Part shown: one piece after another, positions 29,058 through 49,430 of the stretch
How the letters are laid out: the number at the start of each line of letters is the position of its first letter
Position numbering within the stretch: position 1 is the first letter of the stretch
Assembly (NCBI RefSeq): GCF_907165195.1
Contig: NZ_OU015584.1
Coordinates: 1,984,001 to 2,048,000, forward strand
Direction: 5' to 3'
DNA length: 64,000 nucleotides
From: Parvicella tangerina
Lineage (GTDB): Bacteria; Bacteroidota; Bacteroidia; Flavobacteriales_D; Parvicellaceae
The notes under the pieces: model-generated
What the model was told of the DNA's origin: nothing
The model's input: the letters and a program-made list of their open reading frames with translations, nothing else
Databases searched by the model: none
Translations under genes and position numbers: made by a program

Positions 29058-29125
29058 GAGATATCAGAATTAATAGGGTTCGTATTTCTTCTATTTAACA
29101 TAATGTATATTATAGTCAAAAAGTA

Positions 29126-29213
29126 GTAATTTCCGCAATACGCCAGTATTTAACATAAAATCAGTTCTCGGGCGCATGCACGATAACGTCAGATTTTATG
29201 TTAAGGAAATTAC
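29126..29213. repeat. 88-bp interrupted palindrome, copy 1
   Basis: The outer arms GTAATTTCC and GGAAATTAC and the inner arms TTAACATAAAATC and GATTTTATGTTAA are perfectly complementary. The left side carries a 15-base insert between outer and inner arms (GCAATACGCCAGTAT) with no counterpart on the right. The loop contains GGGCGCATGC. A second copy, with two differences, is at 34497-34584 in the same orientation. Similarity extends about 20 bases further upstream (TATATTATAG). The pair encloses 5.3 kb. Confidence 0.85.
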
Positions 29214-29261
29214 GGCACTTTTAATTAGTCCTACAATATATAGCGCCTATAGCGAAAATAT

Positions 29262-29672
29262 TTACAACCCAATTGAATCATCCCAGCTTTGACTGTCCTC
29301 CTTGATAACTTCTCCAGCATCATTCAAATAAATCCATTTCCTGCACCATTGAATTCCGCCATCAGGATGCTCCGAATAATTTATTTGTTTAACTGCACCA
29401 TTCTCGTAGAATTTAAAATTTACAGAGATGATCTGTGCACTGTGCGAAATTGGCGATCCATAGATCAAATCTCCCTGGTTATTATAAATCTTAGCAAATC
29501 CCTGAGCACCATAACTCGGATCTTTTGTTCTGAAGATTTCCGTAGACACTTGACCATTCTCATGATAAGTTAAGGTTGTCCAGCCTTCTTTGTTTTCCTT
29601 TATTTCTTGATTTAATTGGCTGTAACCCATTAATCCAATGCAACACCCAATTATGATCAGTATTATTCTCAT
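29262..29672 (-). CDS. Secreted MORN-like repeat protein
   Basis: The frame opens at 29720, but ATG at 29672 starts a signal peptide (MRIILIIIGCCIGLMGYSQ), so the product is 136 residues. The body has the short repeat (YH/FY)ENG-x-V seen in MORN_2/YwqK-type proteins: LTYHENGQVSTEIFR, KIYNNQGDLIYGSP, FYENGAVKQINYSEH and YLNDAGEVIKED. Such repeats form beta sheets and appear in surface or antitoxin-like proteins. The biological role here is unknown. It lies between the first palindromic repeat and the AAA/TOPRIM gene. Confidence 0.6.
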   Translation of the reverse strand: MRIILIIIGCCIGLMGYSQLNQEIKENKEGWTTLTYHENGQVSTEIFRTKDPSYGAQGFAKIYNNQGDLIYGSPISHSAQIISVNFKFYENGAVKQINYSEHPDGGIQWCRKWIYLNDAGEVIKEDSQSWDDSIGL

Positions 29673-29809
29673 AACTGGATTTAGACAAGCTTTGTGCCAG
29701 GTTATTTTGCTATTTAACATAATATTAAAAGCATGTTACATCTCATACCCTGGAACCTTGTACAATCCATGAGTTTGTTTTGAAATTCTTAATAAATAAG
29801 CCAATAGGT

Positions 29810-29860
29810 CACTTCGAGTGTCATGACCGAACGAAATGAGCGTCATGATGTATCGAGAAG
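29810..29860. repeat. REP-like palindrome (CACTTCGAGTG...ATCGAGAAG type)
   Basis: The segment begins CACTTCGAGTG and ends ATCGAGAAG, with an internal inverted pair GTCATGA/GTCATGA-like arms around CGAAATGAGC. This form is familiar as a dispersed palindrome in many flavobacterial genomes. Copy number must be checked against the whole genome. Confidence 0.5.
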
Positions 29861-29895
29861 AGGCCGTGCCCCTCATTTCCATTCCCCTTAAAAAC

Positions 29896-29926
29896 TGTCA
29901 TCCCGAACGCAGTGGAGGGATCTGCA
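29896..29926. repeat. REP-like element (GTCATCCCGAACGCAGTGG...GGATCTGC type)
   Basis: The 31-base phrase beginning TGTCATCCCGAACG and ending GGGATCTGCA is a common dispersed intergenic repeat form seen across several phyla. It lies 36 bases from another REP-like element. Confidence 0.5.
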
Positions 29927-30160
29927 ACTGTTTAGCACTCCTCCTCTCTCCCACTCGGGCTTGCCAACCGAAGCCCGCGAAGGTGGGTCGGGTCATCCGC
30001 TATATCTTCTGCTCCGCATAAGGATGCCGCTACTACCCCTCACGGAGGAATCTGCTACGCGTCAACCGAAACCTTGGTGGAGGTTGATCCCTCACGGATT
30101 TGTTTCAAACTTTGACAAAATCAGGTATTTATACGTATAGGAAATACAATGTAGGATGGG

Positions 30161-30168
30161 TATCTTTG
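30161..30168 (+). promoter_or_regulatory. Candidate -7 box of the AAA/TOPRIM gene
   Basis: TATCTTTG is a full match to TAnnTTTG, 22 bases before the ATG at 30191. No convincing -33 TTG is seen at the right distance, so this is a partial promoter call. Confidence 0.4.
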
Positions 30169-30190
30169 AGAAGAACAAGATTATTTTAAA

Positions 30191-32089
30191 ATGAAAATAT
30201 CAGAATTCAGAATTGAAAATTTCAAAAACATCAAATTAGCCGAAGGAAAGAATCTTCCTGACTTTGTTGTTATATGTGGAGGTAATGGAAGTGGGAAAAG
30301 CTCTATTTTGGAAGCACTTCTAACGTTACGAAATTTTCTTGCAGGTCAAGTAGACAAGCATCAGAGGTTTCAGTTTGATGTAAATATGATTTCATCCAAC
30401 TCCGATATGTGTACCATAGAAGCAACATTTGAATTCACGGATGAAGAAATTGGTTTTATCAATAATAAATTTGATGGTAAGTTTACTCTACCTAAATCTC
30501 ATTCAGTTTGCATTGCTTTAAAAAAACCAGACGATCCTGATTTAATAATAAACCCTGATGACATAATTGACGAGCTTACTCATAAAAACAGTGAGTTCTT
30601 AGTAGGAATTGAAGGTCAAAACCTAGCCGTTTCTCACATTTTATATGACCATAAATTAGGAGTTAGTGTATTTGACTATTTCAGTGCAATCAGAGAAGTT
30701 AACAAACAGAATATAAATAACTGGCAATCCAGCTATTTACACAGAAACCAGCAGCGTCAAGTATTAATTCAAGAAAGAAACAAATTCCAAAATATAAAAC
30801 AATATTTACTTGGAATCAAAATCGATGATCTCAGACGAATTCAATTAGCTCAAAAGAAAGGAGAAGATTATTCAATAGATTCATTAGAGCCTACAAGAGA
30901 GTTTTTTAAAAGGTTTTTTGCTCCAATGGAATTTATCGACATTGACATGACCAGAACCCCATTTCAATTCGTAATTTCAACACCACAAGGAAATATTGAT
31001 ATAGATAATCTTAGCTCTGGTGAAAAAGAAGTGCTCTTCACATATGTTCATTTTCAAAAATTCAAAACCCGTGATTCTATAATACTTTTTGATGAACCAG
31101 ATGCTCATCTACACCCTGAATTAGAGCGAAACTATTTAATAGCTCTGAAGGAATTGAGTACAGGAAATCAATTCTTTTTGACAACTCATTCGCCAAATAT
31201 GATGGCTCAAACTGGAAGTGATTCATTATTTACTATTATTAAACACCCAGAAGATGGAGTAAACCAATTTCAAAAAGTAACAGATAGTGAAGAAAAACAC
31301 GAGTTGTTATCAGAAATTATGGGTTCTAAAGGCTTTGTTAGTCTCAATCGAAAAATAGTATTTATTGAAGGAGAGACATCTTCTATTGATATAGAAATTT
31401 TTGAAAAATTCTATCCTCCCAATGAATTTGAAATTAGTTTTATTCCTGCTGGAGATTCTTCCACTGTTCGAAATGTTGCTGACAAAGTAAATAAACTCCT
31501 AACGACAAGTATTGGATACGAAAGTTTCTACAGTATTATTGACGGAGATTACAGCAGACTTTCGGATGACCCCACAAATGGAGAAAGACTGTTTCAACTT
31601 TCAGCCTATCATATCGAAAATGTTTTACTCGATATCGTAATTATTAATCAGGTTTTAAAAGATCTTAAAGGATCAGCATATTTGCTTAGTTCACCTCATG
31701 AGTTAGAAGAAAAACTTAAAGAACTTGTATTGTGTGAAAGCCATATTAATACTTACGCAAAAGCTGCTTTGGATTTTGAAATAGCTAGATTAAACAAAGA
31801 GTTTCAGGATAAAATATTTTCTTCTCAATCTGGCGTTCAAATTGATTATTCCGTTATCAAGCCAAGTTTTGATACAATTAAAGAAAAAGTGACAGAAGAA
31901 CTTAAAGTTTCATTGATGAATGATACTTGGAAGCGCAAATGTAAAGGTAGAGATTTGTTAAAGGCATTATCAAATGATCAAAAAATAAGATATCAAGACC
32001 TCAAAAATCTAATACTGGCAAAAATGAATAAAAGCAATCCACCTGCAGAGCTTAAATTAATTATGGATAAAATAATAGAATCCAATTAG
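30191..32089 (+). CDS. AAA/ABC ATPase fused to DUF4435/TOPRIM-like nuclease (merged PARIS-like)
   Basis: This 632-residue protein has an ABC/SMC-type ATPase domain followed by a TOPRIM-like domain. The ATPase shows Walker A GGNGSGKSS (30-38), signature LSSGEKEVL (about 274-282), Walker B IILFDEPDAHLHPELE (about 296-311) and switch FFLTTHSPNMM (about 325-336). The C-terminal part starts RKIVFIEGETSSIDIEIFEKF (about 384-404), and continues with SIIDGDYSRL (DxD, about 447-456), YHIENVLLD (about 472-480) and CKGRDLLKAL (about 583-592). These are the acidic, ENxL and GKxLL-like landmarks of DUF4435. This is the domain pair of the AriA and AriB subunits of the PARIS antiphage system, here in one chain; an OLD-type nuclease is the main alternative. 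Composition is AT-richer than core neighbours. It sits alone between repeats. Confidence 0.7.
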   Translation: MKISEFRIENFKNIKLAEGKNLPDFVVICGGNGSGKSSILEALLTLRNFLAGQVDKHQRFQFDVNMISSNSDMCTIEATFEFTDEEIGFINNKFDGKFTLPKSHSVCIALKKPDDPDLIINPDDIIDELTHKNSEFLVGIEGQNLAVSHILYDHKLGVSVFDYFSAIREVNKQNINNWQSSYLHRNQQRQVLIQERNKFQNIKQYLLGIKIDDLRRIQLAQKKGEDYSIDSLEPTREFFKRFFAPMEFIDIDMTRTPFQFVISTPQGNIDIDNLSSGEKEVLFTYVHFQKFKTRDSIILFDEPDAHLHPELERNYLIALKELSTGNQFFLTTHSPNMMAQTGSDSLFTIIKHPEDGVNQFQKVTDSEEKHELLSEIMGSKGFVSLNRKIVFIEGETSSIDIEIFEKFYPPNEFEISFIPAGDSSTVRNVADKVNKLLTTSIGYESFYSIIDGDYSRLSDDPTNGERLFQLSAYHIENVLLDIVIINQVLKDLKGSAYLLSSPHELEEKLKELVLCESHINTYAKAALDFEIARLNKEFQDKIFSSQSGVQIDYSVIKPSFDTIKEKVTEELKVSLMNDTWKRKCKGRDLLKALSNDQKIRYQDLKNLILAKMNKSNPPAELKLIMDKIIESN

Positions 32090-32113
32090 TCTCAAAAAAA
32101 ACAACCCCTCCGT

Positions 32114-32138
32114 TACCGCGCGATTGCATCGCGTGGTA
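32114..32138. repeat. Palindrome downstream of the AAA/TOPRIM gene
   Basis: TACCGCGCGAT and ATCGCGTGGTA pair (one G-T wobble) around a TGC loop, 25 bases after the AAA/TOPRIM stop. Related hairpins with a changed core (CGCGAA-TCC-TTCGCG; ATCCGAA-AC-TTCGGAT) occupy the matching positions near 36347-36367 and 37700-37720. Confidence 0.55.
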
Positions 32139-32146
32139 TTCACAAC

Positions 32147-32183
32147 AAAAAAACAACCCCACTGATCGTCATCAGTAAGATTG
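32147..32183 (-). terminator. Terminator of the deleted repeat-family copy
   Basis: On the minus strand CAATCTTACTGAT (32183-32171) pairs with ATCAGTGGGGTTG (32166-32154) through 13 pairs, three of them G-U, around a GACG loop, and seven T follow. The same terminator with an altered but still paired hexamer follows the copy at 35951. Confidence 0.8.
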
Positions 32184-32231
32184 TCTCGTTACACAAGCTC
32201 TTCTAGAGAGCCCTTCTAAGTTTATTAGGCG

Positions 32232-32709
32232 TTACCCTATTGCTTCAATACGCATCGCGTTATTGGTAGCTAGTTCATACAATTGTCCGTTGATCTCCTG
32301 AAAGAAAACGATACCAACTGCACTGATCACTGCCACAGTAGGTGGCAATACCGAAGTAAAACCCTTCCAGTATGCTCGAATTAGTCAAGATCTCGAAAGA
32401 TCGTTTACCCCTCTGTCCACTACCAAACGAGTTGATCTTTTTCATCAAGCCTGTGATCTTCCCAACAATGCCGGGTCCTCCCATGCTCTTGATGATGTTT
32501 GCAAACCCTGTTCTCAGAGCTTTTCCAACTTTCGCAGATCCTCCAAACTCAGCATTGTTTTCTCGAGTACGCTTAAACGCAGGGTCTTTCGCGATTCTCT
32601 CTTTGTCAATACCACCAGTAGTTCTTACGATGTTTTTTCCGTTTTTCTCATAAAAGGTCAGTCCTCCCAACGAACCTTTTAGCTTAATAAAGCCTTTTTG
32701 CTTAGCCAT
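32232..32709 (-). pseudogene. Internally deleted copy of the MAKQKGFIKLKG family gene
   Basis: The first 118 or so codons match the intact copy at 37894-38694 with few changes (for example N-AEFGG for M-AEFGG). The sequence then jumps from the phrase SILEGF straight to the region encoding the last 35-40 residues. The junction at 32358-32362 is AAACC, a 5-mer that in the intact copy occurs at both deletion ends (38021-38025 and 38344-38348). 323 bp are lost, which shifts the frame: translation continues through 33 foreign residues and stops at 32275, while the original stop remains at 32232-32234. The upstream leader and downstream terminator are preserved. Confidence 0.9.
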
Positions 32710-32809
32710 AATTTCTAAGTTTTTTTATCCACCGAAGCCCTCTTTGATCACCGTAACCTTGGTGAAGGTGATAGGCGTAGGTGGAGTGTGATAGCATCAA
32801 ATACCATCA

Positions 32810-33044
32810 CTGATTAATAATTAATGAATTGTAAGTCTATTTAAACAGCATCAAACAGCTAGGATTAGGTATCTAGAATCCAAAGTCTAGCGTCAAGCGT
32901 CTAAATCTTAGAAAGGTCTCGGGAAGATTGTGTGTAACTACTTTGTTATATGCCAAACCAATGCCAAGGTTCAGCCCAAAACAGTACTAAATGAGGTAAC
33001 GGTCGGATTTTTACGTAAGTGGTTGTCGCTTAACATTTATTAAC
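32810..33044 (-). repeat. 235-bp conserved leader block of the repeat family, copy C
   Basis: This block is nearly identical, with equal length, to 38783-39017 upstream of the intact copy. It contains a sigma-54-like motif on the minus strand at 32967-32951 and ends in GTTAATAAATGTTAAG at its distal edge. Between this block and the ATG (32710-32809) the sequence differs from the other copy and instead holds a hairpin ATCACC...GGTGAT. Part of a 340-base gene-free stretch. Confidence 0.85.
32951..32967 (-). promoter_or_regulatory. Sigma-54-like promoter motif, copy C
   Basis: On the minus strand TTGGCATTGGTTTGGCA has the GG-N10-GC spacing of sigma-54 promoters, with a good -24 (TTGGCAT) and a -12 of TTGGCA in place of TTGCA. 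The identical motif sits at the same distance upstream of the intact copy. No RpoN or activator gene is in the window. Confidence 0.35.
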
Positions 33045-33049
33045 GGAAA

Positions 33050-33919
33050 TCACTTCCAAATGACTACCTTTTGAGTATTTAGGCAATATTCATTTTTAGA
33101 AAAAAGAATAGTATAAGTGCCATTCTCCAAATGACTAAGATCTAATTGGTTTCTGTCATTAAGTCTTGTATGATAAACTGTTCTACCGGTCAAATCAAAT
33201 ACGCTGACCAAAAATTCATTCGTTTCAATCTCTTTAAAATCTAAATTGATAACCCCCGGACTTGGATTAGGGAATACTTGAACATTAGCCAATGATTTTC
33301 TTTCGTTGATTGAACTTGAAATTTCGGAAGGGTTAGCGAAGGAAAGCCATAACACAGAAAGATTTACACTCCCATTATTATACGTATTCAAACTTTGATT
33401 CCATTGCGAAGGATCTATAATTAGACTGTCAGCATTGTCGGTAAATGTTTGGTATCTATTAGATAGGTAGATGGAAGGAGAATCAAAAACATCCATTTGT
33501 ATATAATCAACCCCACTTAGTATAGATGCCAATCTACAGGAGTCATTTACAAAAAGAGTAGTATCCCATTTAATAACTACAGGATAATTTACCGCTACCA
33601 TATTGATAAAAATGTCAAAATCAAATAAGCATGTTTTATCAATGATTTGCTTTTTTGATTCGTAAGCAGAATTAACATTTGTCCAGTTTGATTTTGCTTC
33701 TCCAGCCCTCACTTCAAATACACTCCCCCAACTTTGCCCTACAATATCAACCTCTCCAAACGCAACATCAATGGAATCCGTTGCATTCTGATCATACCCC
33801 AACAATAAAGTGTCTTTATTTCCCAATCCATCTTCGAAATAAAGCTCAAAAGAAAACTCTTCCTGTGCTTGGATCATCATTGGTAGAATGAAAGTTATAA
33901 TAAGAAGAGATCTTATCAT
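33050..33919 (-). CDS. T9SS-secreted protein of unknown function
   Basis: This 289-residue protein has a signal peptide (MIRSLLIITFILPMMIQAQ), an unrecognised beta-rich middle (about 20-205), and a type IX secretion C-terminal sorting domain (about 210-289). The domain shows the usual marks: VQVFPNPSPGVINLDF, VSVFDLTGRTVYHTRL, LDLSHLENGTYTILF and a basic last strand TQKVVIWK. It would be exported across the outer membrane and attached to or released from the surface. The middle region has no known catalytic motif. Its stop lies 5 bases from the edge of the 235-bp leader repeat. Confidence 0.8.
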   Translation of the reverse strand: MIRSLLIITFILPMMIQAQEEFSFELYFEDGLGNKDTLLLGYDQNATDSIDVAFGEVDIVGQSWGSVFEVRAGEAKSNWTNVNSAYESKKQIIDKTCLFDFDIFINMVAVNYPVVIKWDTTLFVNDSCRLASILSGVDYIQMDVFDSPSIYLSNRYQTFTDNADSLIIDPSQWNQSLNTYNNGSVNLSVLWLSFANPSEISSSINERKSLANVQVFPNPSPGVINLDFKEIETNEFLVSVFDLTGRTVYHTRLNDRNQLDLSHLENGTYTILFSKNEYCLNTQKVVIWK

Positions 33920-34496
33920 TGAATTATAAATTTAGTGGACTGATTGACTTCCGTAAGTTGGAACAAGTCAAAAGTAAATTAATAGTTAAAATTAAGAAAT
34001 TAATCTATTTAAGTCAACCCGTACAAACACCTGTTTTATCGCACGTATATTAAGCTATCTACTCCACCTTTCCTCCATAGATACTCCATAGATACTCCAT
34101 ATCAAAGCCATAGATAGTTCACCTTTAGCCACTAAAAGCCACCTCATTTTTCATTTTGGTGGACTCCTAATGTCTTTTTGCCATCTTTTTGAAGAGTTTA
34201 TTAAGGCTAAGTCAAAGATGTAGGGCGTGCCCCTTCGGGTCAGGCTATCCGCACTACATGGTAGTTTGCTACTATCCCTCACGTTGCTTTAAATAAGAAA
34301 AGCCCTTGCAGGCTTTACCTATTTTTCGCATCACTTATTTGGTGTGTAAGCGTTATTTCATTTCGCCTCCATCGGCTTTCATTCATAACCCTTACAAGTT
34401 GTTTTAATAAAATTTTCCCTCCTCTCCCTTATGGAATAATTAATTGATAAACCTAAGCTAAGTAACATAACGCAGGTATATTATAGCCCAATAGTA
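33920..34496. other. Gene-free stretch before the second palindrome
   Basis: No credible gene in about 580 bases. It contains the 109-bp repeat at 34061-34169. Next comes hairpin-prone sequence with GGGCGTGCCCCTTCGGGTC (about 34223-34241) and CTACTATCCCTCAC, of a kind common between genes in Bacteroidota. A small hairpin AAAGCC/GGCTTT lies near 34300-34317. Confidence 0.5.
34061..34169. repeat. 109-bp direct repeat, copy 1 (with tandem ATAGATACTCC)
   Basis: Starts ACTCCACCTTTCC, contains CATAGATACTC twice in tandem, and ends GGTGGACTCCTA. The same 109 bases with about three differences occur at 49322-49430 in the same orientation, 15.26 kb away. No coding frame is apparent in it on either strand. 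The pair encloses the right half of the repeat region and the whole copper operon. Confidence 0.85.
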
Positions 34497-34584
34497 GTAA
34501 TTTCCGCAATACGCCAGTATTTAACATAGAATCAGTTGTCGGGCGCATGCACGATAACGTCAGATTTTATGTTAAGGAAATTAC
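34497..34584. repeat. 88-bp interrupted palindrome, copy 2
   Basis: Same length, orientation and arms as the copy at 29126-29213, with two substitutions: TTAACATAGAATC for TTAACATAAAATC in the inner left arm, and GTTGTCGG for GTTCTCGG in the loop. The 15-base one-sided insert is identical. Sequence beyond the right outer arm is unrelated to that beyond copy 1. Confidence 0.85.
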
Positions 34585-35266
34585 ACCCTATAATATAACA
34601 CTATGTCTGCGCTACGCTTGTCCTGACCAATCCGTCAGGATAAATAGATCACACCATCCTGCGCTTTTATTCTCGTTTCTTTTGAATATTCACGTAGAAT
34701 TATTCAGTTTAGAAATTCTAACGAATTCTCAGATGGCAAATCGTTTATGTCCTATAATTTGCCGTTATGTATAAATAGCCTCACATCTCTCGCTATTTGC
34801 TTAAAAATTCCCTGCATATTCCTTCGGGAAATTTTTTGCAGGAAATTTTAGGCGCAAATGCTTTAGCATTCACGAATACATATAAATAATCAATTCATTC
34901 ATGAGTAAATCCAGCCTCATCTGCCAACGCCTTTATTAATTAATTATCTCATGCCCGCGCACAAAAATTTTATATGGATGGTTCGCTTTGCAGCAAAATA
35001 ATGCGCTTAGCCTTAATAACTTTTGCGGCTTTCTTTCGCATTTTTTGCCGCGTATCGCTCACTGAGTTATTTATTTATGTTCATTTTTTCTTGATAAAAA
35101 ACGAACCAAAAAATCAAGAAGAAAATAAGCTTCAGCCCGCTCTGTGTGTCTTATATGTAGCACAGCTACAAAGCGCTGTCGCGCTTGGCTCAAAGCCAAG
35201 GACGATTGCTCTTTGAGCCAGTCACACATTCACGCCATCGCTGGCCCGCAGTTTCTTCTGGCTCTC
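34585..35266. other. Long gene-free AT-rich tract
   Basis: About 680 bases with no protein-like open frame on either strand; the frames at 34547 and 34974 lack normal composition and start signals. The tract has several short inverted repeats (TTCCTTCGGGAA near 34829, GGCTCAAAGCC near 35188, TTGATAAAAAACGAACC... followed by a complementary AAATCAAG near 35090-35120). It may be decayed coding sequence or a set of small structured elements. Confidence 0.4.
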
Positions 35267-35296
35267 GCACTTTTTTATTTAACATAATAAAAGTGC
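35267..35296. repeat. Palindrome immediately upstream of the HEPN-like gene
   Basis: GCACTTTT (35267-35274) and AAAAGTGC (35289-35296) flank TTATTTAACATAAT. The centre TTTAACATAA is the same core as in the inner arms of the 88-bp palindromes. It ends 12 bases before the ATG at 35309, so it could be an operator for that gene or a boundary element. Confidence 0.5.
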
Positions 35297-35308
35297 TATA
35301 TTCATGAC

Positions 35309-35812
35309 ATGAGAAGAAATGACATTTATCCTATAATTGGAGAATACATTAGTAAATGTAATGGTATTGAAGATATTTTCACAACAGTAATGGTTTATCA
35401 TTTATCTGGGGAATTAACAGGTGAAAAGGCTGATTTAGTTGTAGAACACTTAATATCAAAACCAAGTACAACTTTTCAAACCAAAACAACTTCATTTATA
35501 AAATTATTGAGCGAATTTCATAGTGAGTTTCAAAATGAAAATTCGGAGTTATTAAGTAAAAAGAAGTTGAATAACATGGTTAGTTTTCGAAATAAACTAG
35601 CTCATGGTTATTGTGTTAGTACTACCCCATCAAAGAAAGATAAATTAGAATTCAGATGGATCAATAGCGATTTAAAAAAAGATAATTACAAATTTCAGCT
35701 GACTTCGATCGAAATACAAACTAATCTAAAGTATGTAACTGAATTAACTGATATTCTTGTGGGCTTCTTGCGTTCTATTTACAAGTTAGAAGGTTACGAT
35801 CATAAACTCTAG
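35309..35812 (+). CDS. HEPN-like protein with R-x4-H motif
   Basis: This 167-residue, wholly helical cytoplasmic protein carries MVSFRNKLAHGYC near residues 91-103. The RNKLAH hexamer is the R-x4-H signature of HEPN domains, whose Arg and His form a metal-independent RNase site. The preceding long helices (IIGEYISKCNGIEDIFTTVMVYHL, KTTSFIKLLSEFHSEF) fit the four-helix bundle. HEPN proteins are common toxins or antiphage RNases, often paired with a nucleotidyltransferase antitoxin, but no such partner is adjacent. It is AT-rich and lies among repeats with a defence-like gene nearby. The family assignment rests mainly on the motif. Confidence 0.55.
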   Translation: MRRNDIYPIIGEYISKCNGIEDIFTTVMVYHLSGELTGEKADLVVEHLISKPSTTFQTKTTSFIKLLSEFHSEFQNENSELLSKKKLNNMVSFRNKLAHGYCVSTTPSKKDKLEFRWINSDLKKDNYKFQLTSIEIQTNLKYVTELTDILVGFLRSIYKLEGYDHKL

Positions 35813-35821
35813 ATTAACAAC

Positions 35822-35857
35822 AAAAAACAACCCCATCACTCGTCAGTGATAAGATTG
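35822..35857 (-). terminator. Terminator of the truncated repeat-family copy
   Basis: On the minus strand CAATCTTATCACT (35857-35845) pairs with AGTGATGGGGTTG (35840-35828) around the same GACG loop as in the copy at 32147, and six T follow. The inner hexamer differs from that copy on both arms, keeping the pairing intact. Confidence 0.8.
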
Positions 35858-35950
35858 TCTCGTTACACTGGTCTTCACGCTTGCCCACCGCAATTCAAAG
35901 AATGTAGGCGGGTTAGAAGACCTCTTCTAAGTAAATACTAGAGTAGTACA

Positions 35951-36337
35951 CTACCCTATTGCCTCAATACGCATTGCGTTATTGGTAGCCAGTTCATACA
36001 ATTGTCCGTTGATCTCCTGAAAGAAAACGATACCAACTGCACTGATCACTGCTACAGTAGGTGGTAATACCGAAGTAAAACCTAAGTCTACCGTGAGCGT
36101 GGTGTCACTTCCCACCGTACCTCCCAATGCAATAGGAGTACTAAAAGCGATCCCATTCGTTTCGTTTTCATTTGGATTCACCGGCTCAAAGCTCTTGCTT
36201 GAGTTATCGTATGCGTAGTCGCTCAACACCGTTGTGGCCAAAACCAACTGAAAGTGTGTTGCTCCTTCGGGCGCATTCATAAAGCTATCCATGTTAAAAT
36301 CTGGAACTGTCCACGTAGCAATACTCCTGTTTGCATC
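35951..36337 (-). pseudogene. 5'-truncated copy of the MAKQKGFIKLKG family gene
   Basis: This 387-bp segment is about 99% identical to the 3' part of the intact gene (37894-38280), encoding residues 139-266 and the same stop. The last 113 residues are identical in protein sequence. Similarity stops sharply at 36337 after TTTGCATC, and the first 414 bp of the gene, the leader and the start are replaced by a GC-rich hairpin (CGCGAA-TCC-TTCGCG) and the promoter of the next gene. The downstream flank, including its hairpins, also matches the intact copy. A translatable ATG at 36292 exists but no promoter is evident. Confidence 0.9.
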
Positions 36338-36404
36338 CCTCCGCTCCCGCGCGAATCCTTCGCGTGGCCCGCAGACTTCGGTCTTCCATGATGCACAACC
36401 GATG

Positions 36405-36433
36405 TTTGATCTCCAAAATTTTCCCTAATTTTG
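36405..36433 (+). promoter_or_regulatory. Candidate promoter of the LRR T9SS protein
   Basis: TTTG at 36405-36408 and TAATTTTG at 36426-36433 (spacer 17) fit the Bacteroidota form, and the ATG at 36478 lies 44 bases downstream. Confidence 0.45.
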
Positions 36434-36477
36434 AACCTAATTAGTGAACATTGTTTGAAGACTCATATAATAGAGCT

Positions 36478-37674
36478 ATGGAGAAACTTATTTTGACAAC
36501 ATTGATTCTATTGGGGTGGTCTGTTAGGATTAATGCTCAGGTTACATACATTCCTGATCCGAATTTTGAACAAGCATTAATTAATTATGGATTAGATAAT
36601 GGTACGATAGATGGACAAGTAGCTACAGTAAGTATTGATACTGTTACGATACTGAATGTGAACAACTATGGTATTGCTGATATGACAGGTGTTGAAGACT
36701 TTGTTTCACTAAGAAAGCTTTGGAGTGTGAACAATAGCTTCACAGGCATCGATGTCTCAAATTTAGTAAACTTAGAATGGCTAAGTTTGGGCAATGGTAA
36801 TTTGTCGAGTTTGGATGTGTCAAATAATCCCAATTTAGAAGTACTAGAATGTGCCATTAGTAACCTTTCCGCTCTTGATTTATCAGCTAACACATCGCTT
36901 AAAATACTACAGTGTTTCTCCAATAACATTTCTTATTTAGACCTAAGTAATTGTCCTGACATCCAGCAGATTAAATGCAATTTGAATGATCTGGATAGTA
37001 TAAGTTTTAACCAAAACATCATGTTATCAGAACTTTATTGTGGGGACAATAATTTGACACAAATTAATCTAAGTCAAACTCCTAACTTAATGATTCTTGA
37101 TTTAAGTGGAAATTTACTTTCAACAATAGATGTGTCTTATTGTCAAAATTTAGAAACATTTTCAATAACAGGTACCAATTTAACAGAACTGGATCTTAGT
37201 CAAAATCCGAACTTAGTAATGGTAAACTGTAGTTACTCTGACCTCGTTTGTCTTAATGTAAAGAATGGGAATAACTCATCCATCACATCATTTTCTGCAG
37301 AAAACAATTCTAACCTTGCCTGCATAGAAGTAAATGACGTAAACTGGGCAACGAATAATTGGACAATAGATGCTACGGCATCATTTAATACTTACTGTAA
37401 TAATTCTTGTTCTTTAGGAGTTCATTCTGTTAAGATGTTTAATGTGGATGTTTTTCCTAATCCAACTCAAAATTATCTCAATCTACAATTGGATAGGCTT
37501 GCTGAGAGAGTTGAAATTTCCATTCTAAATTATTTAGGTCAAACATTGGAAAGTAGTGTTTACTCTAATACCTCGGAATTGACTCTAAGTATGCCTTTAA
37601 ATGCTGGAGTGTATTTTTTAAAAATAGCATTGAATGAAGATGAAATGCAACTTATTAGGGTTTTGAAAGAGTAG
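36478..37674 (+). CDS. Secreted leucine-rich-repeat protein with T9SS sorting domain
   Basis: The frame opens at 36451, but the ATG at 36478 starts a signal peptide (MEKLILTTLILLGWSVRINAQ), giving 398 residues. An N-terminal segment VTYIPDPNFEQALINYGLDNGTIDGQV is the usual start of Bacteroidota LRR surface proteins. From about 70 to 290 there are around ten short LRRs of about 21-22 residues with the pattern L-x-x-L-D-(L/V)-S-x-N (LSSLDVSNNPNLEVLECA, LSALDLSANTSLKILQC). A T9SS C-terminal sorting domain closes the protein (VDVFPNPTQNYLNLQL ... MPLNAGVYFLKIALN ... LIRVLKE). It is a probable surface binding or adhesion protein. Confidence 0.85.
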   Translation: MEKLILTTLILLGWSVRINAQVTYIPDPNFEQALINYGLDNGTIDGQVATVSIDTVTILNVNNYGIADMTGVEDFVSLRKLWSVNNSFTGIDVSNLVNLEWLSLGNGNLSSLDVSNNPNLEVLECAISNLSALDLSANTSLKILQCFSNNISYLDLSNCPDIQQIKCNLNDLDSISFNQNIMLSELYCGDNNLTQINLSQTPNLMILDLSGNLLSTIDVSYCQNLETFSITGTNLTELDLSQNPNLVMVNCSYSDLVCLNVKNGNNSSITSFSAENNSNLACIEVNDVNWATNNWTIDATASFNTYCNNSCSLGVHSVKMFNVDVFPNPTQNYLNLQLDRLAERVEISILNYLGQTLESSVYSNTSELTLSMPLNAGVYFLKIALNEDEMQLIRVLKE

Positions 37675-37742
37675 GGTGTAGCCCCCCGAGCTCCCGCACA
37701 TCCGAAACTTCGGATGCATCGCGTGATATTCACACAACAAAA

Positions 37743-37800
37743 CAACCCCACTGACCTGTCCCGAATTGTACAACTTCGGGGTCGGATATCAGTAAGATTG
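37743..37800 (-). terminator. Terminator of the intact repeat-family copy, loop enlarged by a REP hairpin
   Basis: The 12-bp outer stem (37743-37754 with 37789-37800) is the same as at the other two copies. The 4-base loop is replaced by a 34-base insert that itself folds (CCCGAA with TTCGGG). Only four A precede the stem on the plus strand, so the T-run is weaker than in the other copies. Confidence 0.65.
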
Positions 37801-37893
37801 TCTCGTTACACTGGTCTTCACGCTTGCCCACCGCAATTCAAAGAATGTAGGCGGGTTAGAAGACCTCTTCTAAGAAAATTCTAGAGTAGTACA

Positions 37894-38694
37894 CTACCCT
37901 ATTGCTTCAATACGCATTGCGTTATTGGTAGCCAGTTCATACAGTTGTCCGTTGATCTCCTGAAAGAAAACGATACCAACTGCACTGATCACTGCTACAG
38001 TAGGTGGTAATACCGAAGTAAAACCTAAGTCTACCGTGAGCGTGGTGTCACTTCCCACCGTACCTCCCAATGCAATAGGAGTACTAAAAGCGATCCCATT
38101 CGTTTCGTTTTCATTTGGATTCACCGGCTCAAAGCTCTTGCTTGAGTTATCGTATGCGTAGTCGCTCAACACCGTTGTGGCCAAAACCAACTGAAAGTGT
38201 GTTGCTCCTTCGGGCGCATTCATAAAGCTATCCATGTTAAAATCTGGAACTGTCCACGTTGCAATACTCCTGTTCGCATCAAGTACGGGTGCATTGTACG
38301 GTGCGTAAAAGATCGCTCCCAAAGGAGATAGCTTGTTAAACTCAAACCCTTCCAGTATGCTCGAGTAAGTCAAGATCTCGAAAGATCGTTTACCCCTCTG
38401 TCCACTACCAAACGAGTTGATCTTTTTCATCAAGCCAGTGATCCTTCCCACTATTCCACTTCCACCCATACTCTTGATGATGTTGGCAAACCCCGTTCTC
38501 AGAGCCTTTCCAACTTTCGCAGAACCTCCAAATTCAGCCATGTTTTCTCGCGTACGCTTAAATGCAGGGTCTTTCGCGATTCGCTCTTTGTCAACACCAC
38601 CGGTAGTTCTTACGATGTTTTGTCCATTCTTTTCATAAAAGGTCAGTCCTCCCAACGAACCTTTTAGCTTAATAAAGCCTTTTTGCTTAGCCAT
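37894..38694 (-). CDS. Intact member of the multi-copy MAKQKGFIKLKG family, function unknown
   Basis: This 266-residue protein has no signal peptide or membrane helix. The N-terminal 115 residues are basic and helical, with short glycine-rich strands at the start (KGFIKLKGSLGGLTFYEKNGQNIVRTTGG) followed by RIAKDPAFKRTRENMAEFGGSAKVGKALRTGF. The C-terminal 130 residues are beta-rich (ATWTVPDFNMDSF, HFQLVLATTVLSDYAYD, DTTLTVDLGF). Proteins with this N-terminus occur in many copies in Bacteroidota genomes, and I know of no function. It is preceded by a 235-bp conserved leader and followed by a conserved terminator. Two broken copies lie within 6.5 kb. Confidence 0.8.
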   Translation of the reverse strand: MAKQKGFIKLKGSLGGLTFYEKNGQNIVRTTGGVDKERIAKDPAFKRTRENMAEFGGSAKVGKALRTGFANIIKSMGGSGIVGRITGLMKKINSFGSGQRGKRSFEILTYSSILEGFEFNKLSPLGAIFYAPYNAPVLDANRSIATWTVPDFNMDSFMNAPEGATHFQLVLATTVLSDYAYDNSSKSFEPVNPNENETNGIAFSTPIALGGTVGSDTTLTVDLGFTSVLPPTVAVISAVGIVFFQEINGQLYELATNNAMRIEAIG

Positions 38695-38747
38695 AATTTC
38701 TAAGTTTTTTGAGGAATCTTGATTACCACCTCTACGCTAACGTCAAA

Positions 38748-38774
38748 CGTCATTGCGAGGAACGAAGCAATCTC
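38748..38774. repeat. REP-like element (CGTCATTGCGAGG...GAAGCAATCTC type)
   Basis: This 27-base phrase is a widespread dispersed intergenic repeat form. Here it occupies the variable slot between the ATG of the intact repeat-family gene and its conserved leader block; the corresponding slot at the deleted copy holds a different hairpin. Confidence 0.6.
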
Positions 38775-38782
38775 ATACTCCT

Positions 38783-39017
38783 CTGATTAATAATTAATTT
38801 ACTTGTAGTCTATTTAAACAGCATCAAACAGCCAGGATTAGGTATCTAGAATCCAAAGTCTAGCGTCAAGCGTCTAAATCTTAGAAAGGTCTCGGGAAGA
38901 TTGTGTGTAACTACTTTGTTATATGCCAAACCAATGCCAAGGTTCAGCCCAAAACAGCCCTAAATGAGGTAACGGTCAGTTTCTTACGTAAGTGGTTGAG
39001 GCTTAACATTTATTAAC
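38783..39017 (-). repeat. 235-bp conserved leader block of the repeat family, copy A
   Basis: Equal in length and nearly identical to 32810-33044, with most changes near its distal edge. On the minus strand it runs from GTTAATAAATGTTAAG through the sigma-54-like motif and a GACGCTTGACGCTAGAC segment with a direct GACGCT repeat to ATTAATCAG. It is longer and better conserved than a promoter would need, so it could also encode a structured leader RNA. Confidence 0.85.
38924..38940 (-). promoter_or_regulatory. Sigma-54-like promoter motif, intact copy
   Basis: TTGGCATTGGTTTGGCA on the minus strand, with GG-N10-GC spacing, identical to that of the deleted copy. It would place the transcript start near 38912, giving a leader of roughly 215 bases before the ATG at 38694. 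Confidence 0.35.
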
Positions 39018-39077: not shown

Positions 39078-40616
39078 TTAAGGTCGATCATACTTGCAAC
39101 AACCCGGCAAAGCATTGTAAACAGCATCATCTGCTTTATGTGTTTCGGTATCATATCCCACAGATGCAATCTTGTCTTTCATTTGGTCCTCGTTGATAAT
39201 ATCCGAATCAAAATTGATCGTGATCATTTTGGATTCTTTGTTCCAATTCACTGAACCAATGCCGTCTTGTCCGATCAAAGAACCTTCAATAGTTTCTTTA
39301 CACATGCCACAATTACCATAGACTTTGAATGTAGTGTTATCTTTAAGAGGCTCAATGCTTACTTCTGCGGTAGTGTTTCCTCCTTCTACCAGATGTTGAT
39401 TCATCATGCTGGCTTGATTATTCAATTGGGCGGATGCATCGATGACAAACGCTCCGTTGGTTACAACTTCATCACCAGTCTTCAACCCCGAAATAACAAG
39501 ATATGAATCGCCCACTGTCTCCCCTATCTCAATAGCTCTATATTCAAATGAAGGAGTACTTTGGTCTTTCAGTTTCAGGTAGACAACCGACCTTTTACCA
39601 GTCCATAATACAGCTGATTTAGGGACTAACAGCTGACTATTAGAGTTAGTAATTCCTTCTACATACCCGTTAATAAACATCTCAGGTTTCAGTTTGGCAT
39701 TCCCATTAGACACATTGGCTCTCACCGCTATAGTTCTGGTCGCTGGATCGATTACAGGATCAATGAAACTGATCTTTGCAACAAATTTCTCGTTAGGATA
39801 GCTAGTTGTCGTAAAGCTAATTTCATCACCGATATTTACATGCGCTAGATCTGTTTCATAAATATCAAATACCGCCCAAACCTTTGTAAGACTCTGTACA
39901 TCAAACAAGACTTCTCCTTCCTTGATGTAATCGCCTACTGATACTTTCTTAGTCTTTACAACTCCAGAAAATTCAGCGTAGATATCAAAGGTTTCAATTG
40001 CACTGGACGATGTAAGAATTGTTTCTATTTGAGCATTACTTAACTTCCAGTATTTTAACTTATTATAAGCTGCCTCATAAAGCTTTGGATTAGATTGTTT
40101 CGTTTGATTGGCTTCTAGTAATTCTTGTTGTGCTGCAATCAATTTCGGTGAATATATAGAAGCTATCTTCTGTCCTTTAGATACATTCTCACCTGTATAG
40201 GAGATATATAATTTCTCTATTCTTCCCGGGAGATTACTTACTAAGCTCGAAGATACAGTTTCATCTGCTTTGATCTTTCCCGAGATGGCTAATCCCTTTT
40301 CTGAAGTGTTTGAAGCACCTATCTTGGTGGTCTGTATGTTAGAGATCTTAACGGCCTCCTCAGACATCGTAAAGACCAACGGATCTTCATTTGCATTTTC
40401 TTCTAATGGAATTAGATCCATCCCACAAATAGGACAATCACCAGGTTCTGGCTGTCTGATCTGTGGATGCATGGAGCACGTCCAGATCTGTTCGCTATGT
40501 TCAGAATGGTCGTGAGTTTTTTCTTCTTCTTGTGAAGTACCTTTAGTTCCAAATAAAAAGTAGCCAGCAGCTAGTCCTACCACAAGCAAACTTGCATATA
40601 TAATGTAATTCTTCAT
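39078..40616 (-). CDS. CusB-like RND efflux adaptor with metal-binding N- and C-terminal domains
   Basis: This 512-residue periplasmic adaptor has an N-terminal membrane helix (YIIYASLLVVGLAAGYFLFG) and a His-rich stretch (HDHSEHSEQ). A heavy-metal-binding domain WTCSMHPQIRQPEPGDCPICGMDLIPL follows (about 46-72). Next come the membrane-fusion domains: lipoyl halves, helical hairpin around 150-210, beta-barrel and membrane-proximal parts to about 410. A C-terminal HMA-like domain has GNCGMC (about 437-442), and the chain ends LPGCCKYDRP, another possible metal site. It links the CusA pump to the CusC channel and may feed it Cu(I)/Ag(I). It is the last gene of the operon, 3 bases after copA. 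Confidence 0.9.
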   Translation of the reverse strand: MKNYIIYASLLVVGLAAGYFLFGTKGTSQEEEKTHDHSEHSEQIWTCSMHPQIRQPEPGDCPICGMDLIPLEENANEDPLVFTMSEEAVKISNIQTTKIGASNTSEKGLAISGKIKADETVSSSLVSNLPGRIEKLYISYTGENVSKGQKIASIYSPKLIAAQQELLEANQTKQSNPKLYEAAYNKLKYWKLSNAQIETILTSSSAIETFDIYAEFSGVVKTKKVSVGDYIKEGEVLFDVQSLTKVWAVFDIYETDLAHVNIGDEISFTTTSYPNEKFVAKISFIDPVIDPATRTIAVRANVSNGNAKLKPEMFINGYVEGITNSNSQLLVPKSAVLWTGKRSVVYLKLKDQSTPSFEYRAIEIGETVGDSYLVISGLKTGDEVVTNGAFVIDASAQLNNQASMMNQHLVEGGNTTAEVSIEPLKDNTTFKVYGNCGMCKETIEGSLIGQDGIGSVNWNKESKMITINFDSDIINEDQMKDKIASVGYDTETHKADDAVYNALPGCCKYDRP

Positions 40617-40619
40617 GAT

Positions 40620-43100
40620 TTAATGATTTACGTTTTGTGTTCTTAATCTGAGTGCATTGGCAATGACAGATACCGAGCTAAAGCTCATCGCCAGTGCCGC
40701 TATCATTGGCGAAAGCAGCATATCGAATACCGGATATAATAATCCTGCTGCAACTGGAATTCCGATCGTATTGTAACCCAAGGCAAAGAATAGATTCTGC
40801 TTAATATTTCTCATTACTTTATGACTTAATATCCTGGCCTTGACGATTCCATGTAAATCTCCCTTTACCAAGGTGATTTCCGAACTTTCTATGGCTACAT
40901 CAGTACCTGTTCCCATAGATATTCCTACATCAGCAAGAGCTAGCGCTGGAGCATCATTGATACCGTCTCCTGCCATAGCAACGATCTTTCCTTGAGCTTG
41001 CAATTCTTTTACTTTGTTCAGCTTATCTTCAGGCAAACAATCCGCAACATAAGTCGTCAAGCTAATTTCATCTGCCACAGCTTTAGCCGTATGTTCATTA
41101 TCTCCCGTCATCATAATGACTTCCACTCCCCTTTCTTGAAGCTCTTTAATAGCTTGTTTGCTGGTTTCTTTGATCGCATCGGATATCACTACTAGTCCTA
41201 CAAGCACGCCATCGATAGCTATATAGGGAACCGTCTTTCCTTTTGATTTTACTTCATTCGCTTTCTCCTCAATAGCCGTTGTGATTTCAACTGAATGGCT
41301 GTTCATTAACTTTTCGTTACCGACTAAAATTAATTGACCATCTATTTTAGCTGCTACGCCTTTACCAGTAACGGCATTAAAATCTGTAACGTCCTTCAAT
41401 TCGATCTTTTTATGCTTCGCAAATTGAACAGTTGCAGCTGCCAACGGGTGTTCACTTTGGCTGTTGGCAGAAGCCACCCATTGAGCTAATTGATTTTCAT
41501 TGTAATCGGAGACTGAAATAACTGCCTCTACAGAGGGTTTTCCTTCTGTCACCGTTCCTGTTTTATCGATGATCAACACATCTACCTTATTCATTTTTTC
41601 TAATGATTCAGCATTCTTGATGAGCACGCCCTCCTGCGCTCCTTTTCCTACGCCTACCATTATAGACATGGGTGTAGCTAAACCAAGGGCACACGGACAT
41701 GCAATAATTAAAACGGCTATCGCATTGACAAAAGCAAATACTAATTGAGGTGTTGGACCAAAAATGTACCACAGAATAAATGTAACAACGGAAACTACAA
41801 TTACCAACGGAACAAAATAACTCGAGATCTTATCGGCCAATTTCTGAATTGGAGCTCTACTCCTACTGGCATCATTGACCATATGTATGATCTGAGACAA
41901 CAAAGTGTCTGCTCCAACTTTCTCCGCTTTCATCACAAATGACTGGTTGCCGTTGATTGTTCCTGAGGTTACGTTATCCCCTACTGCTTTGTCCACAGGA
42001 ATTGGCTCTCCAGTGATCATCGATTCATCTATTGCACTTTCGCCTTCCGTGATCTTTCCATCTACAGGGATCTTATCGCCCGGCTTAACACGTAAAAGGT
42101 CTCCAACTACAATCTGGTCTATGGATATCTTTTCTTCTTGTCCATCTTTGATTCGAATAGCTTCGTTAGGTGCTAGCTTTAGGAGCTCTTTAACGGCATT
42201 ATTCGTTTTACTATGTGCTTTGGCTTCTAACAGCTGTCCTAGAAGTACCAAAGTCAAAATCACAGTAGCAGCCTCAAAGTATACATGAACGTTGCCAGAG
42301 GCTGTTTTAAAATCATCTGGAAACACAGAAGGGAACAATAATGCCCCGATACTGAATAACCAAGCTGCTCCAGATCCAATTCCGATCAACGTGAACATAT
42401 TCAAATTCCACATCCTGATTGAATTATAGGCTCTTTTGAAAAACATCCATGTAGCATAAAACACTACAGGTAGGGATAATCCCAATTGTATCCAATTCCA
42501 GTAGATTTGATCCATCAACTTGTAAAGCGGATTTCCATGAATCATCTCAGACATCGCAATTAAGAAAATAGGCAGCGTAAATGCGGATGCCAGCCAAAAC
42601 TTCTTCAATAAGACCTTATATTGTTTCTCTTCCTCACTCTCATTAGCTGCTAAGGGCACCAGATCCATTCCGCACTTTGGACAAGATCCCATTTCATCTT
42701 TGACCACCTCGGGATGCATCGGACAAGTAAATTTACCTCCGGTAGAATTGATCTTTACCTCTGGCACTAACGCCATTCCACATACAGGACAATCCCCTGG
42801 TTTATCATAGGTTTTGTCTCCTTCGCATTGCATCGGGCAGTAATATTTTGCGCCCTCTTTTGCAATTGGCTTTTCCTTTGGTTTTACTTCTTCATGACTG
42901 GCATGAATCATATAATTAGACCCTTCAAACAACTGCTTAAGTTCTTCTATCGGCACATGTTTGCCAAAGGTGATCTCTGCTATTCCGCTACTTAGATCAA
43001 TGTTTGCCTCCTGAATGTCTTTATGATGTTCAAGCGTTTCTTTCACATGGCTCTTACATCCATTACAGGTCATTCCTGATATTTTATAATTATGTTTCAT
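40620..43100 (-). CDS. copA: Copper-exporting P1B-type ATPase (CopA), operon copy
   Basis: This 826-residue ATPase has an N-terminal HMA domain (GMTCNGC, 9-15) and two heavy-metal-binding motifs: [24 protein letters not shown] (about 87-110) and [22 protein letters not shown] (about 124-145). The P-type core has MITGEP in the actuator domain, CPC in [13 protein letters not shown] (about 468), the phosphorylated Asp in DKTGTVTEG (about 511), the SEHPLA motif, and [11 protein letters not shown]. It exports Cu(I) from the cytoplasm. A second CopA at 50193 has the same length and domain order. The start is supported by its position directly before the HMA domain. Confidence 0.95.
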
Positions 43101-43157
43101 TTTAATCTTTTTGACAAATTTCAGATTTACCCTACTCTTATTTGTGTATCATTTTGA

Positions 43158-43715
43158 CTAAATATTATCCAATTTTGTTCGAATACCATTTTTCTTAAAT
43201 TCAGAAGTGGTCATACCCGTAATTTGTTTGAACTGCTTCGCTAAATGCTGAGGAGAACTATACCCCAACTCATAGGATATCTCACTGATATTAAGCTTGT
43301 CGTATTTGATCAATTCCTTCACTTTTTCTACTTTCAGTGTTATAAAGTACCGCTCAATAGTTTTGCCTTCAACAGAAGAAAAAAGCTTGCTTAATGATTG
43401 ATAATTTATTGAAGTTTCCTTTTGAAGGAAATCACTCAAGTTCAGGTCCATGGTATTTGACAAATCATTTACCTTTTTTATTAAACTGGTCTTTACCCTT
43501 TCAATGATAGCATCTTCTTTAGCTGTTAAGAGTTCAAATCCTACTTTTTTGAGCTCTTTACCCAGGTTTTCCAAATCTTCTGAACTAGGCACTTCTTCAA
43601 AAATCACCTTACCTAATTCTGTTGAATAATTTGGGAACTGAAGTGATGTTAGTATTTGATCCAGGACCAATACACATCGATGGCAAACCATATTTTTTAT
43701 ATAAACTATCTTCAT
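43158..43715 (-). CDS. AraC regulator with N-terminal HMA-like metal-binding domain
   Basis: This 185-residue protein starts with a short HMA-like domain (about 1-65; MKIVYIKNMVCHRCVLVLDQIL has M-x-C-x-x-C) fused to an AraC-type DNA-binding domain (about 95-180). The HTH marks are LSKLFSSVEGKTIERYFITLKVEKVKELI and ISEISYELGYSSPQHLAKQFKQITGMTTSEFKK. The usual sugar-sensing cupin is absent. The likely logic, by inference, is that copper binding to the N-terminal cysteines changes DNA binding and turns on this operon, in which it lies between cusC and copA. Confidence 0.85.
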   Translation of the reverse strand: MKIVYIKNMVCHRCVLVLDQILTSLQFPNYSTELGKVIFEEVPSSEDLENLGKELKKVGFELLTAKEDAIIERVKTSLIKKVNDLSNTMDLNLSDFLQKETSINYQSLSKLFSSVEGKTIERYFITLKVEKVKELIKYDKLNISEISYELGYSSPQHLAKQFKQITGMTTSEFKKNGIRTKLDNI

Positions 43716-43716
43716 A

Positions 43717-48650: not shown

Positions 48651-48729
48651 GACTTATTATTTTTTTGACAAATACAAAAAGCCCATACACCAATTACAAA
48701 TGGTGTTGAGCAACATCAAAAAAATGAAA

Positions 48730-49218
48730 TCATATGATAAATACCTGATGTAGAGCTTGAATATCCCTACTTATAGGAGGTGGGTGGTAGTAATGAAAAT
48801 AATTTAATTCACTTTTAAAACTGTTGAAAGCAAGTTCTACTGTATAGATTTGAGGTATCTCTACAATCAGATTAGTAAAATCAAGAGTGAATTGTTCTAC
48901 TTCATAAGCATCTGAAGTATCAATACTAAAGCTTTCATTGTGACAACAGTTTCCTTTAATTTCCGAAGTATGCGAACAGGTTTCAACTTCTACTTTCTCA
49001 GCCTTTTTCGCATGACAACAGGAATGTGTTTCTTCTTTAACTGGTGTTTTTTCTTCTTGCTTCAAAGCCATTTCGCAAGGCTCTGCTTCACCAAAAAAGC
49101 TAAAGTTGATAAACTCGCCACGACAAAAATGCACATCCATGGACAATCCAGATGATGTTATCAACATCAGTATTGCCATCAAAGCTGCAGTAATTCTATG
49201 TTTTAAGCTTATTTTCAT
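48730..49218 (-). CDS. HYC_CC_PP family secreted protein
   Basis: This 162-residue secreted protein has an N-terminal signal helix (AALMAILMLITSSGLSMDV). The three family marks are HFCRGE (family HYC), a Cys/His-rich centre with SCCHAKK and NCCHNES (the CC pairs), and the C-terminal YHPPPISRDI (the PP). The Cys-Cys-His clusters suggest metal binding in the periplasm. Proteins of this type commonly lie beside Cus/Cop genes in Bacteroidota. It is the first gene of the copper operon, 79 bases before cusA, with a promoter at 49232-49262. Confidence 0.75.
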   Translation of the reverse strand: MKISLKHRITAALMAILMLITSSGLSMDVHFCRGEFINFSFFGEAEPCEMALKQEEKTPVKEETHSCCHAKKAEKVEVETCSHTSEIKGNCCHNESFSIDTSDAYEVEQFTLDFTNLIVEIPQIYTVELAFNSFKSELNYFHYYHPPPISRDIQALHQVFII

Positions 49219-49231
49219 GATTCGCTATGAG

Positions 49232-49262
49232 TAAATGTAGCATTTAATACCTAAATGACCAA
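49232..49262 (-). promoter_or_regulatory. Promoter of the copper operon
   Basis: On the minus strand TTG (49262-49260) and TACATTTA (49239-49232) are 20 bases apart, close to the Bacteroidota consensus (last base A for G). The first start codon (49218) lies 13 bases downstream. Confidence 0.5.
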
Positions 49263-49321
49263 TAATTTAACCTCGTTTTAACATGATTATCAGCTTATTA
49301 GTAAAATTCTACTCAATTATA

Positions 49322-49430
49322 ACTCCACCTTTCCTTCATAGATACTCCATAGATACTCCATATCAAAGCCATAGATAGTTCACCTTTAGCCACTAAAAGC
49401 CACCTCATTTTGCACTTTGGTGGACTCCTA
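49322..49430. repeat. 109-bp direct repeat, copy 2
   Basis: Matches 34061-34169 over 109 bases with about three differences, same orientation. It lies just upstream of the copper operon promoter, in a 385-base gene-free stretch (49263-49654) that otherwise holds nothing I recognise. A direct repeat at both sides could support recombination that removes or duplicates the segment between. Confidence 0.85.

Follow-up and report, generated by a model that had tools for sequence, protein, structure and literature searches.

A probable defence-type island around copies of an integrative-element accessory gene family in Parvicella tangerina

The integrative element CTnDOT is served by RteC and by excisionase-like (Xis) proteins of the HTH_17 type. 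Among the transposases of repetitive extragenic palindromes (REPs), TnpA-REP subclass 2.6 carries the motifs NH[LIV]H and YIH[QN]NP, belongs to Bacteroidetes and has atypical structures with copies elsewhere, according to the available part of PMC6006769. In this study, we analyzed a stretch of 64,000 nt from Parvicella tangerina (assembly GCF_907165195.1, contig NZ_OU015584.1, 1,984,001-2,048,000; hereafter the window, in whose own numbering features are placed unless a locus is named), which holds three copies of a repeated gene family to which we gave the working label FAM. In many of the relatives sampled, FAM is mobile-element equipment. On balance, we favor the view that the locus in the window represents a defence-type island, small and variable, which borders a metal-efflux run and is built around FAM as an accessory family of integrative elements; the window looks like a solitary, decayed and reshuffled FAM descendant rather than a new machine. 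FAM further serves as a handle on cargo-carrying integrative elements for which the family libraries searched offer no name.

The three copies lie on the minus strand within 10 kb (29.1-39.0 kb), which confirms a preliminary description of this DNA, which had listed one intact, one 5'-truncated and one internally deleted copy in the same orientation. Copy A (37894-38694) has an intact open frame of 266 aa, copy B (32233-32709) is a pseudogene with a frameshift and an internal deletion of 323 nt, and copy C (35813-36337) consists of only the 3' half and the terminator. Compared with A, the 5' part of copy B (32359-33044) is 87.8% identical and its 3' part (32233-32363) 96.2% identical, and these parts overlap by 5 nt (32359-32363, GGTTT on the coding strand), which constitutes a microhomology at the frameshifting deletion. 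Copy C is 98.8% identical to the 3' half of A over 488 bp (35850-36337); its 5' half is gone, and the break is located at or near GATGC, at a REP-like palindrome (36347-36367, minus strand). The breaks at a 5-nt microhomology in B and at a REP-like palindrome in C therefore point to illegitimate recombination. Codon comparison gave 19 synonymous and 6 non-synonymous differences in 117 codons between A and B, which thus diverged mostly by silent changes, and 4 synonymous and no non-synonymous differences in 128 codons between A and C.

The leaders of copies A (38695-39017) and B (32710-33044), both on the minus strand, are identical across 124 nt (38834-38957 in A and 32861-32984 in B), and that of A bears CTGACCGTTACCTC(A/G)TTTAG, which is common to the own-genome paralogue L053. 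The 3' region of copy A (37715-37893, minus strand) contains a terminator hairpin at about 37765-37811, behind which a further hairpin (37699-37716) is a variant of the REP-like palindrome; the terminator of copy B lies at 32148-32194 on the same strand as the copy. Bearing on the proposal that leader and terminator are conserved around the copies, the leader differs at fewer positions than do third codon positions (13/218 versus 21/117; Fisher p = 0.001) and the terminator hairpins fold in 3/3 copies, but the difference from all coding positions (29/351) is not significant (p = 0.33) and the hairpin tips are not the same. By eye, sigma-54-like promoters were seen in approximately 4 of 11 FAM leader regions inspected, and possible conserved mini-frames of 13-14 codons, rich in E and S, downstream of FAM in L054, L055 and L068.

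Counted genome-wide, FAM proved to be multi-copy, as the preliminary description had it, with 13 matched places in its own genome; these represent 10 open members including A, copy B in two pieces, and copy C, and three of the open members other than A match weakly, or strongly over just a part of the profile. Its distribution in relatives is patchy (13 of 119 other genomes; 14 of 120 with its own), and in a draw of the phylum, for which up to 6 FAM candidates were scored per genome, the family occurs in 35 of 391 other genomes (36 of 392 with its own), all within the same class. Within the genus, G002 has a member of 32% identity, and G001 and G003 have none. The protein closest to the window FAM, at 66% identity, is that of L166, which lies in a genome of another family (support 100/99 in a tree that leaves out rows of 200 aa or less), and approximately 3 kb downstream of it are genes for HsdM and Methylase_S (type I specificity). 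Inspection by eye placed FAM near an apparent histidine biosynthesis operon in both L053 and L166, which come from different families.

The earlier view that the gene family is undescribed agrees with our searches, in which FAM matched no Pfam model at E <= 1, had one negligible PHROG match (E 0.0065) and gave spurious NCBIfam matches far below cut-off, so that no known recombinase or nuclease family was matched in these three libraries. A phage protein was considered and rejected, FAM having 0 matches in 50,697 phage records and 1 in 72,556 plasmid records; in viral contigs, a single locus was found, adjoining what appears by eye to be a Mu-like prophage. The first structure model of FAM was poor (predicted local distance difference test, pLDDT, 50). 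That of the L076 relative reached a pLDDT of 72.5, with a confident C-terminal beta-sandwich and weak C2/Ig-like matches (best Z 6.1), and Foldseek returned no match for it at E <= 0.001; nothing convincing emerged when the sequences of solved structures were searched with FAM. No description of the FAM module described below was found in the literature under the names searched, and the available part of PMC2817692 is without these terms.

The FAM loci that revealed this module lie outside the window and number 80: 6 in the P. tangerina genome, 26 in relatives, 40 in regions taken from the phylum draw, 7 on further contigs and 1 viral. Loci sharing one genome are not independent; the partner counts leave out the window copies and FAM matches below 100 bits (L133_8, L093_8 and L098_3). 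FAM is accompanied by TM83, a membrane protein of 83 aa, at 48 of these loci, by a divergent helix-turn-helix (HTH) regulator gene at 43, and by DUF5675 and DUF6943, whose names are supplied by Pfam, at 26 each; at least one of these four partners occurs at 61 loci. Further partners are TM61, a membrane protein of 60 aa (20 loci), a 73-aa protein (14 loci) and a non-coding block within 10 kb (34 loci). A tyrosine integrase lies within 6 kb of FAM at 14/80 loci, a xis-like gene is present at 7/80 and a rep-like gene, a working label for a protein that has no Pfam match, at 6/80. In G118, G173 and G096, the order, which varies, is integrase, cargo, xis-like gene, rep-like gene, cargo, non-coding block, DUF6943, membrane proteins, FAM and HTH, followed in places by the next integrase. 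According to Pfam, the element of G118 carries RteC and an HTH_17 protein, and that of G173 an arm-type integrase, an efflux pump, an HTH_17 protein, a methylase, and HerA-type and AAA proteins. In L061, L062, L081 and L089, the FAM-side and non-coding blocks are conserved and the sequence between them is non-matching, the cargo of L061 at this position being an ArsR regulator and an SBF transporter. As a separate observation by eye, FAM stands alone or with HTH only among apparent polysaccharide or glycosyltransferase genes in L134, L138, L096 and L149. In the literature available to us in part, no paper was found on DUF6943 or on DUF6266, a family considered below, and DUF5675 was met in two Vibrio phage papers.

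Direct-repeat attachment sites at both ends were shown for G173 and G118 alone, and both of these elements bear an integrase. In G173, the 19-bp repeat CAAATCCCTCTTTCTCCGC stands at both ends of the unit, 34.6 kb apart (longest repeat in 200 shuffles, 13), and in G118 a 17-bp core is repeated 25.8 kb apart (longest in 200 shuffles, 12). When the two cores were searched in the 80 loci at up to 2 and 1 mismatches, 17 matches were obtained in 17 loci, 14 of them on the strand opposite to FAM, 631-806 bp upstream of the gene. The core at -1165 in L161 coincides with the 3' end of a tRNA-Ser gene called by ARAGORN, and 2 further cores are more distant; around the second core, which we take to resemble a tRNA end, ARAGORN called no tRNA gene in the stretches examined. 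Where a core is found, FAM is about 0.7 kb away, just within one end of an element that inserts into tRNA genes and carries defence or efflux cargo, and therefore helps to locate element ends. The alternative raised in the preliminary description, that the family is part of a mobile element, is thus supported in relatives by partners, integrases and attachment cores.

In the P. tangerina genome, two inverted FAM members approximately 11 kb apart (L055:6142-6915 and L227:4572-5231; 1.606 and 1.618 Mb) flank a CRISPR-Cas9 system. The neighbors of own-genome members include Cas9/Cas1 and Cas2, a cytosine methylase with an MvaI/BcnI-type nuclease, and HipA with an Eco57I-type methylase; members also lie near an integrase pair and a single integrase. 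Solitary FAM relatives in this genome are met near CRISPR, restriction and PARIS-like genes.

Several results weigh against reading the window as a descendant of such elements and must be set beside the evidence above. As noted previously for the locus, no integrase is visible (best E 0.64 in the window with the integrase model built here); moreover, no attachment core was found near the window FAM, and a model search found neither module partners nor their remnants. Neither core is present in 63/80 loci, in a search that covered these two cores, and both core sequences had first been taken from G173 and G118, the two genomes that supply 5 of the 14 core loci. The 19/80 loci with none of the four main partners are spread over several places in the tree, and solitary FAM may therefore have a role of its own. 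The partner models (HTH, TM83, DUF5675, DUF6943 and others) were derived from the same 80 loci as were counted, so that the partner counts are descriptive, and the defence genes near FAM were noted without a random-gene control. Conjugation or mobilization genes were absent among the 10 proteins scanned with Pfam, the remainder being judged by eye. The leader comparison with all coding positions belongs to the same side of the balance.

The cargo in the window was found to be unrelated from gene to gene, and the identities previously assigned to it stood for two type IX secretion system (T9SS) proteins and for the AAA/TOPRIM protein, but the MORN and HEPN likenesses fall below the Pfam cut-offs. 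These genes encode a MORN-like protein (29262-29720, minus strand; E 0.009), the AAA/TOPRIM-type protein, whose best PADLOC match is the PARIS-like AriAB (30191-32089, plus strand), a protein with a T9SS sorting domain detected by Pfam (33050-33919, minus strand), a HepT/HEPN-like protein (35309-35812, plus strand; E 0.007) and, between C and A, a leucine-rich-repeat protein with a T9SS sorting domain (36478-37674, plus strand). They come to within 0-40 bp of the copy ends: the HEPN-like gene stops exactly where copy C homology begins (0 bp), the stop codon of the T9SS gene at 33050-33919 is 5 bp away from 33044, the limit of copy B homology, and the stops of the AAA/TOPRIM and leucine-rich-repeat genes are 35 and 40 bp distant from the copies. 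Six cargo genes were compared with other genomes, of which fetched stretches rather than complete sequences were used, and gave no match; the AriAB-like protein had none at E <= 1e-40 in 119 other genomes. Synteny in several of the fetched stretches was seen for two left-flank genes. Judged from these comparisons, the cargo looks lineage-specific.

The flanking metal-efflux run (39078-52802, minus strand, with one open reading frame, 49604-50176, on the plus strand) comprises a CusB-type fusion protein, two heavy-metal P-type ATPases, an outer-membrane efflux protein and an RND pump. At its right edge is a tRNA-Pro(GGG) gene (52884-52959), which we rejected as an island anchor because its 3' end has no duplicate in the window: no second copy was found there at up to 4 mismatches of 18, and the only T-arm motif is that of the tRNA itself. 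Rfam at gathering scores detected nothing but this tRNA in 26-54 kb.

Repeats that the preliminary description had not listed are a 109-bp palindrome and a 117-bp array repeat, each present twice, and two REP-like palindromes. The 109-bp near-palindromes (29105-29213 and 34476-34584) are 95% identical, 5.4 kb apart, and account for two matches in the genome (fold z -6.6); the left arm had no match in viral contigs. The 117-bp repeat carries an 11-bp phased CCATAGATAC array of CCATA units (34061-34177, plus strand) and has a second copy upstream of the metal-efflux run (49322-49438, plus strand), both arrays being on the strand opposite to the window FAM copies. Arrays resembling this repeat gave 5 matches in 82 FAM loci (1.36 Mb), all within 1.5 kb upstream of FAM; the chance of this placement at random is 6e-6, and the pattern was composed after the window repeat and some FAM leaders had been viewed, which makes the 5/5 placement post hoc. 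L166 holds a similar array that the pattern missed. Of the REP-like palindromes, one is that at the truncation of copy C and the other (32116-32136, minus strand) lies between the AriAB-like gene (stop at 32089) and copy B. The exact pattern has three matches in the 3.98-Mb genome, two at the window breaks and the third approximately 1.3 kb from a Y1_Tnp gene (L223:4905-5456), whose product matches PF01797 (E 9e-9) and has the motifs NHVH and YIHNNP; matches to the palindrome head numbered three in L223 and two in the window among the 12 stretches searched. From its sequence, this protein is a probable REP transposase. Between the MORN-like and AriAB-like genes, 29800-30100 presumably represents interspersed-repeat-like sequence of the TGTCATCCCGAACGCAGTGGAGGGATCT type.

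The arrangement of copies and cargo might also be explained as ordinary decay in an intergenic hot spot beside the metal-efflux run, in which FAM has no causal part. The integrase and partner models found no mobility genes in the window, short homologies and palindromes are present at the breaks, and solitary FAM copies elsewhere adjoin many kinds of genes, all of which suits this explanation; we nevertheless consider it unlikely given the proximity of own-genome FAM to Cas9/Cas1, Cas2, a restriction-modification pair, HipA and integrases, a proximity assessed without random genes as a control. Rather unlikely, too, is the proposal that FAM copies are landing pads at which homologous recombination, between copies or with incoming FAM DNA, inserts and removes cargo. 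In its favor are same-strand copies up to 98.8% identical over 488 bp with cargo between them, and the stop codons of the HEPN-like and T9SS genes, which are 0 and 5 bp away from such homology; FAM copies are also 12-35 kb apart in G096, G118 and G173, and the inverted pair bracketing CRISPR-Cas9 is compatible with the idea but provides no test of it. However, the two readable breaks inside copies are a microhomology deletion and a REP-like palindrome, which speak for illegitimate recombination and against the movement of cargo by homologous recombination suggested in the preliminary description; in G118 and G173, moreover, the copy spacing goes with the repeated attachment cores.

We hold it to be very improbable that FAM together with its leader and terminator forms a self-mobile or cross-mobilized element. 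A and B share the unit with a sharp upstream end, and L075 and L078 are FAM units of approximately 3.8 kb at two sites of one metagenome-assembled genome, with no integrase in the fetched stretch, but no target duplication or common terminal repeat was seen by eye, and the libraries searched place FAM in no known recombinase or nuclease family. Additionally, one end of the L075 unit is an attachment core; this unit therefore looks like the end of a larger element, and L075/L078 were rejected as a free transposon. A cassette array of the integron type, in which the 109-bp palindromes act as attC-type sites, would account for a strong palindrome (z -6.6) at two places among small unrelated genes, and yet the genome has just two copies, 5.4 kb apart, and the window has no integrase-model match, which renders this explanation extremely improbable.

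Under the reading that we favor, namely, a variable defence-type island around an integrative-element accessory family, the FAM lineage of the window would have arrived by horizontal transfer, illegitimate recombination at palindromes and short homologies would have rearranged the copies and cargo, and AriAB-like and similar genes may have settled at the locus because the site tolerates insertions. We can also envisage, as a quite improbable extension, that an undescribed module (FAM with DUF5675, two holin-like membrane mini-proteins, DUF6943 and HTH) allows integrative elements to exit or enter cells, with FAM as its principal structural or envelope-acting protein, and that solitary FAM copies outlast the decay of the elements and seed variable defence islands such as that in the window.

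Among described families and systems, DUF6266 (PF19781) resembles FAM in its similar size and N-terminal pattern; it adjoins DUF6943-like open reading frames, by sequence, in L182 and L183, and, of 20 places listed, 4 (G310 C19, G310 C30, G192 C1 and G200 C1) have it less than 3 kb away from FAM. Homology between it and FAM is not supported (hhalign probability 0.2%, 93 columns). The likeness to REPs and their TnpA-REP (RAYT; REP-associated tyrosine transposase) of subclass 2.6 lies in the Y1_Tnp protein of the own genome, whose motifs agree with those given in the part of PMC6006769 available and near which palindromes like those at the window breaks are found; the difference is that the own-genome palindromes vary in the tip and that their exact pattern is rare (3 in 3.98 Mb). 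The protein at 30191-32089 resembles the fused defence protein AriAB of PARIS, scoring 273 bits with the PADLOC AriAB model, but Pfam finds just ATPase-type domains in it, and its defence activity is a prediction. A close parallel to the FAM elements of relatives is offered by tRNA-integrating integrative and conjugative or integrative and mobilizable elements with CTnDOT-type regulators. The window differs from these in having neither an integrase nor an attachment core, whereas the relatives share with them integrases with an arm-binding domain, HTH_17 proteins and variable cargo, together with RteC in G118 and attachment cores at both ends in G118 and G173.

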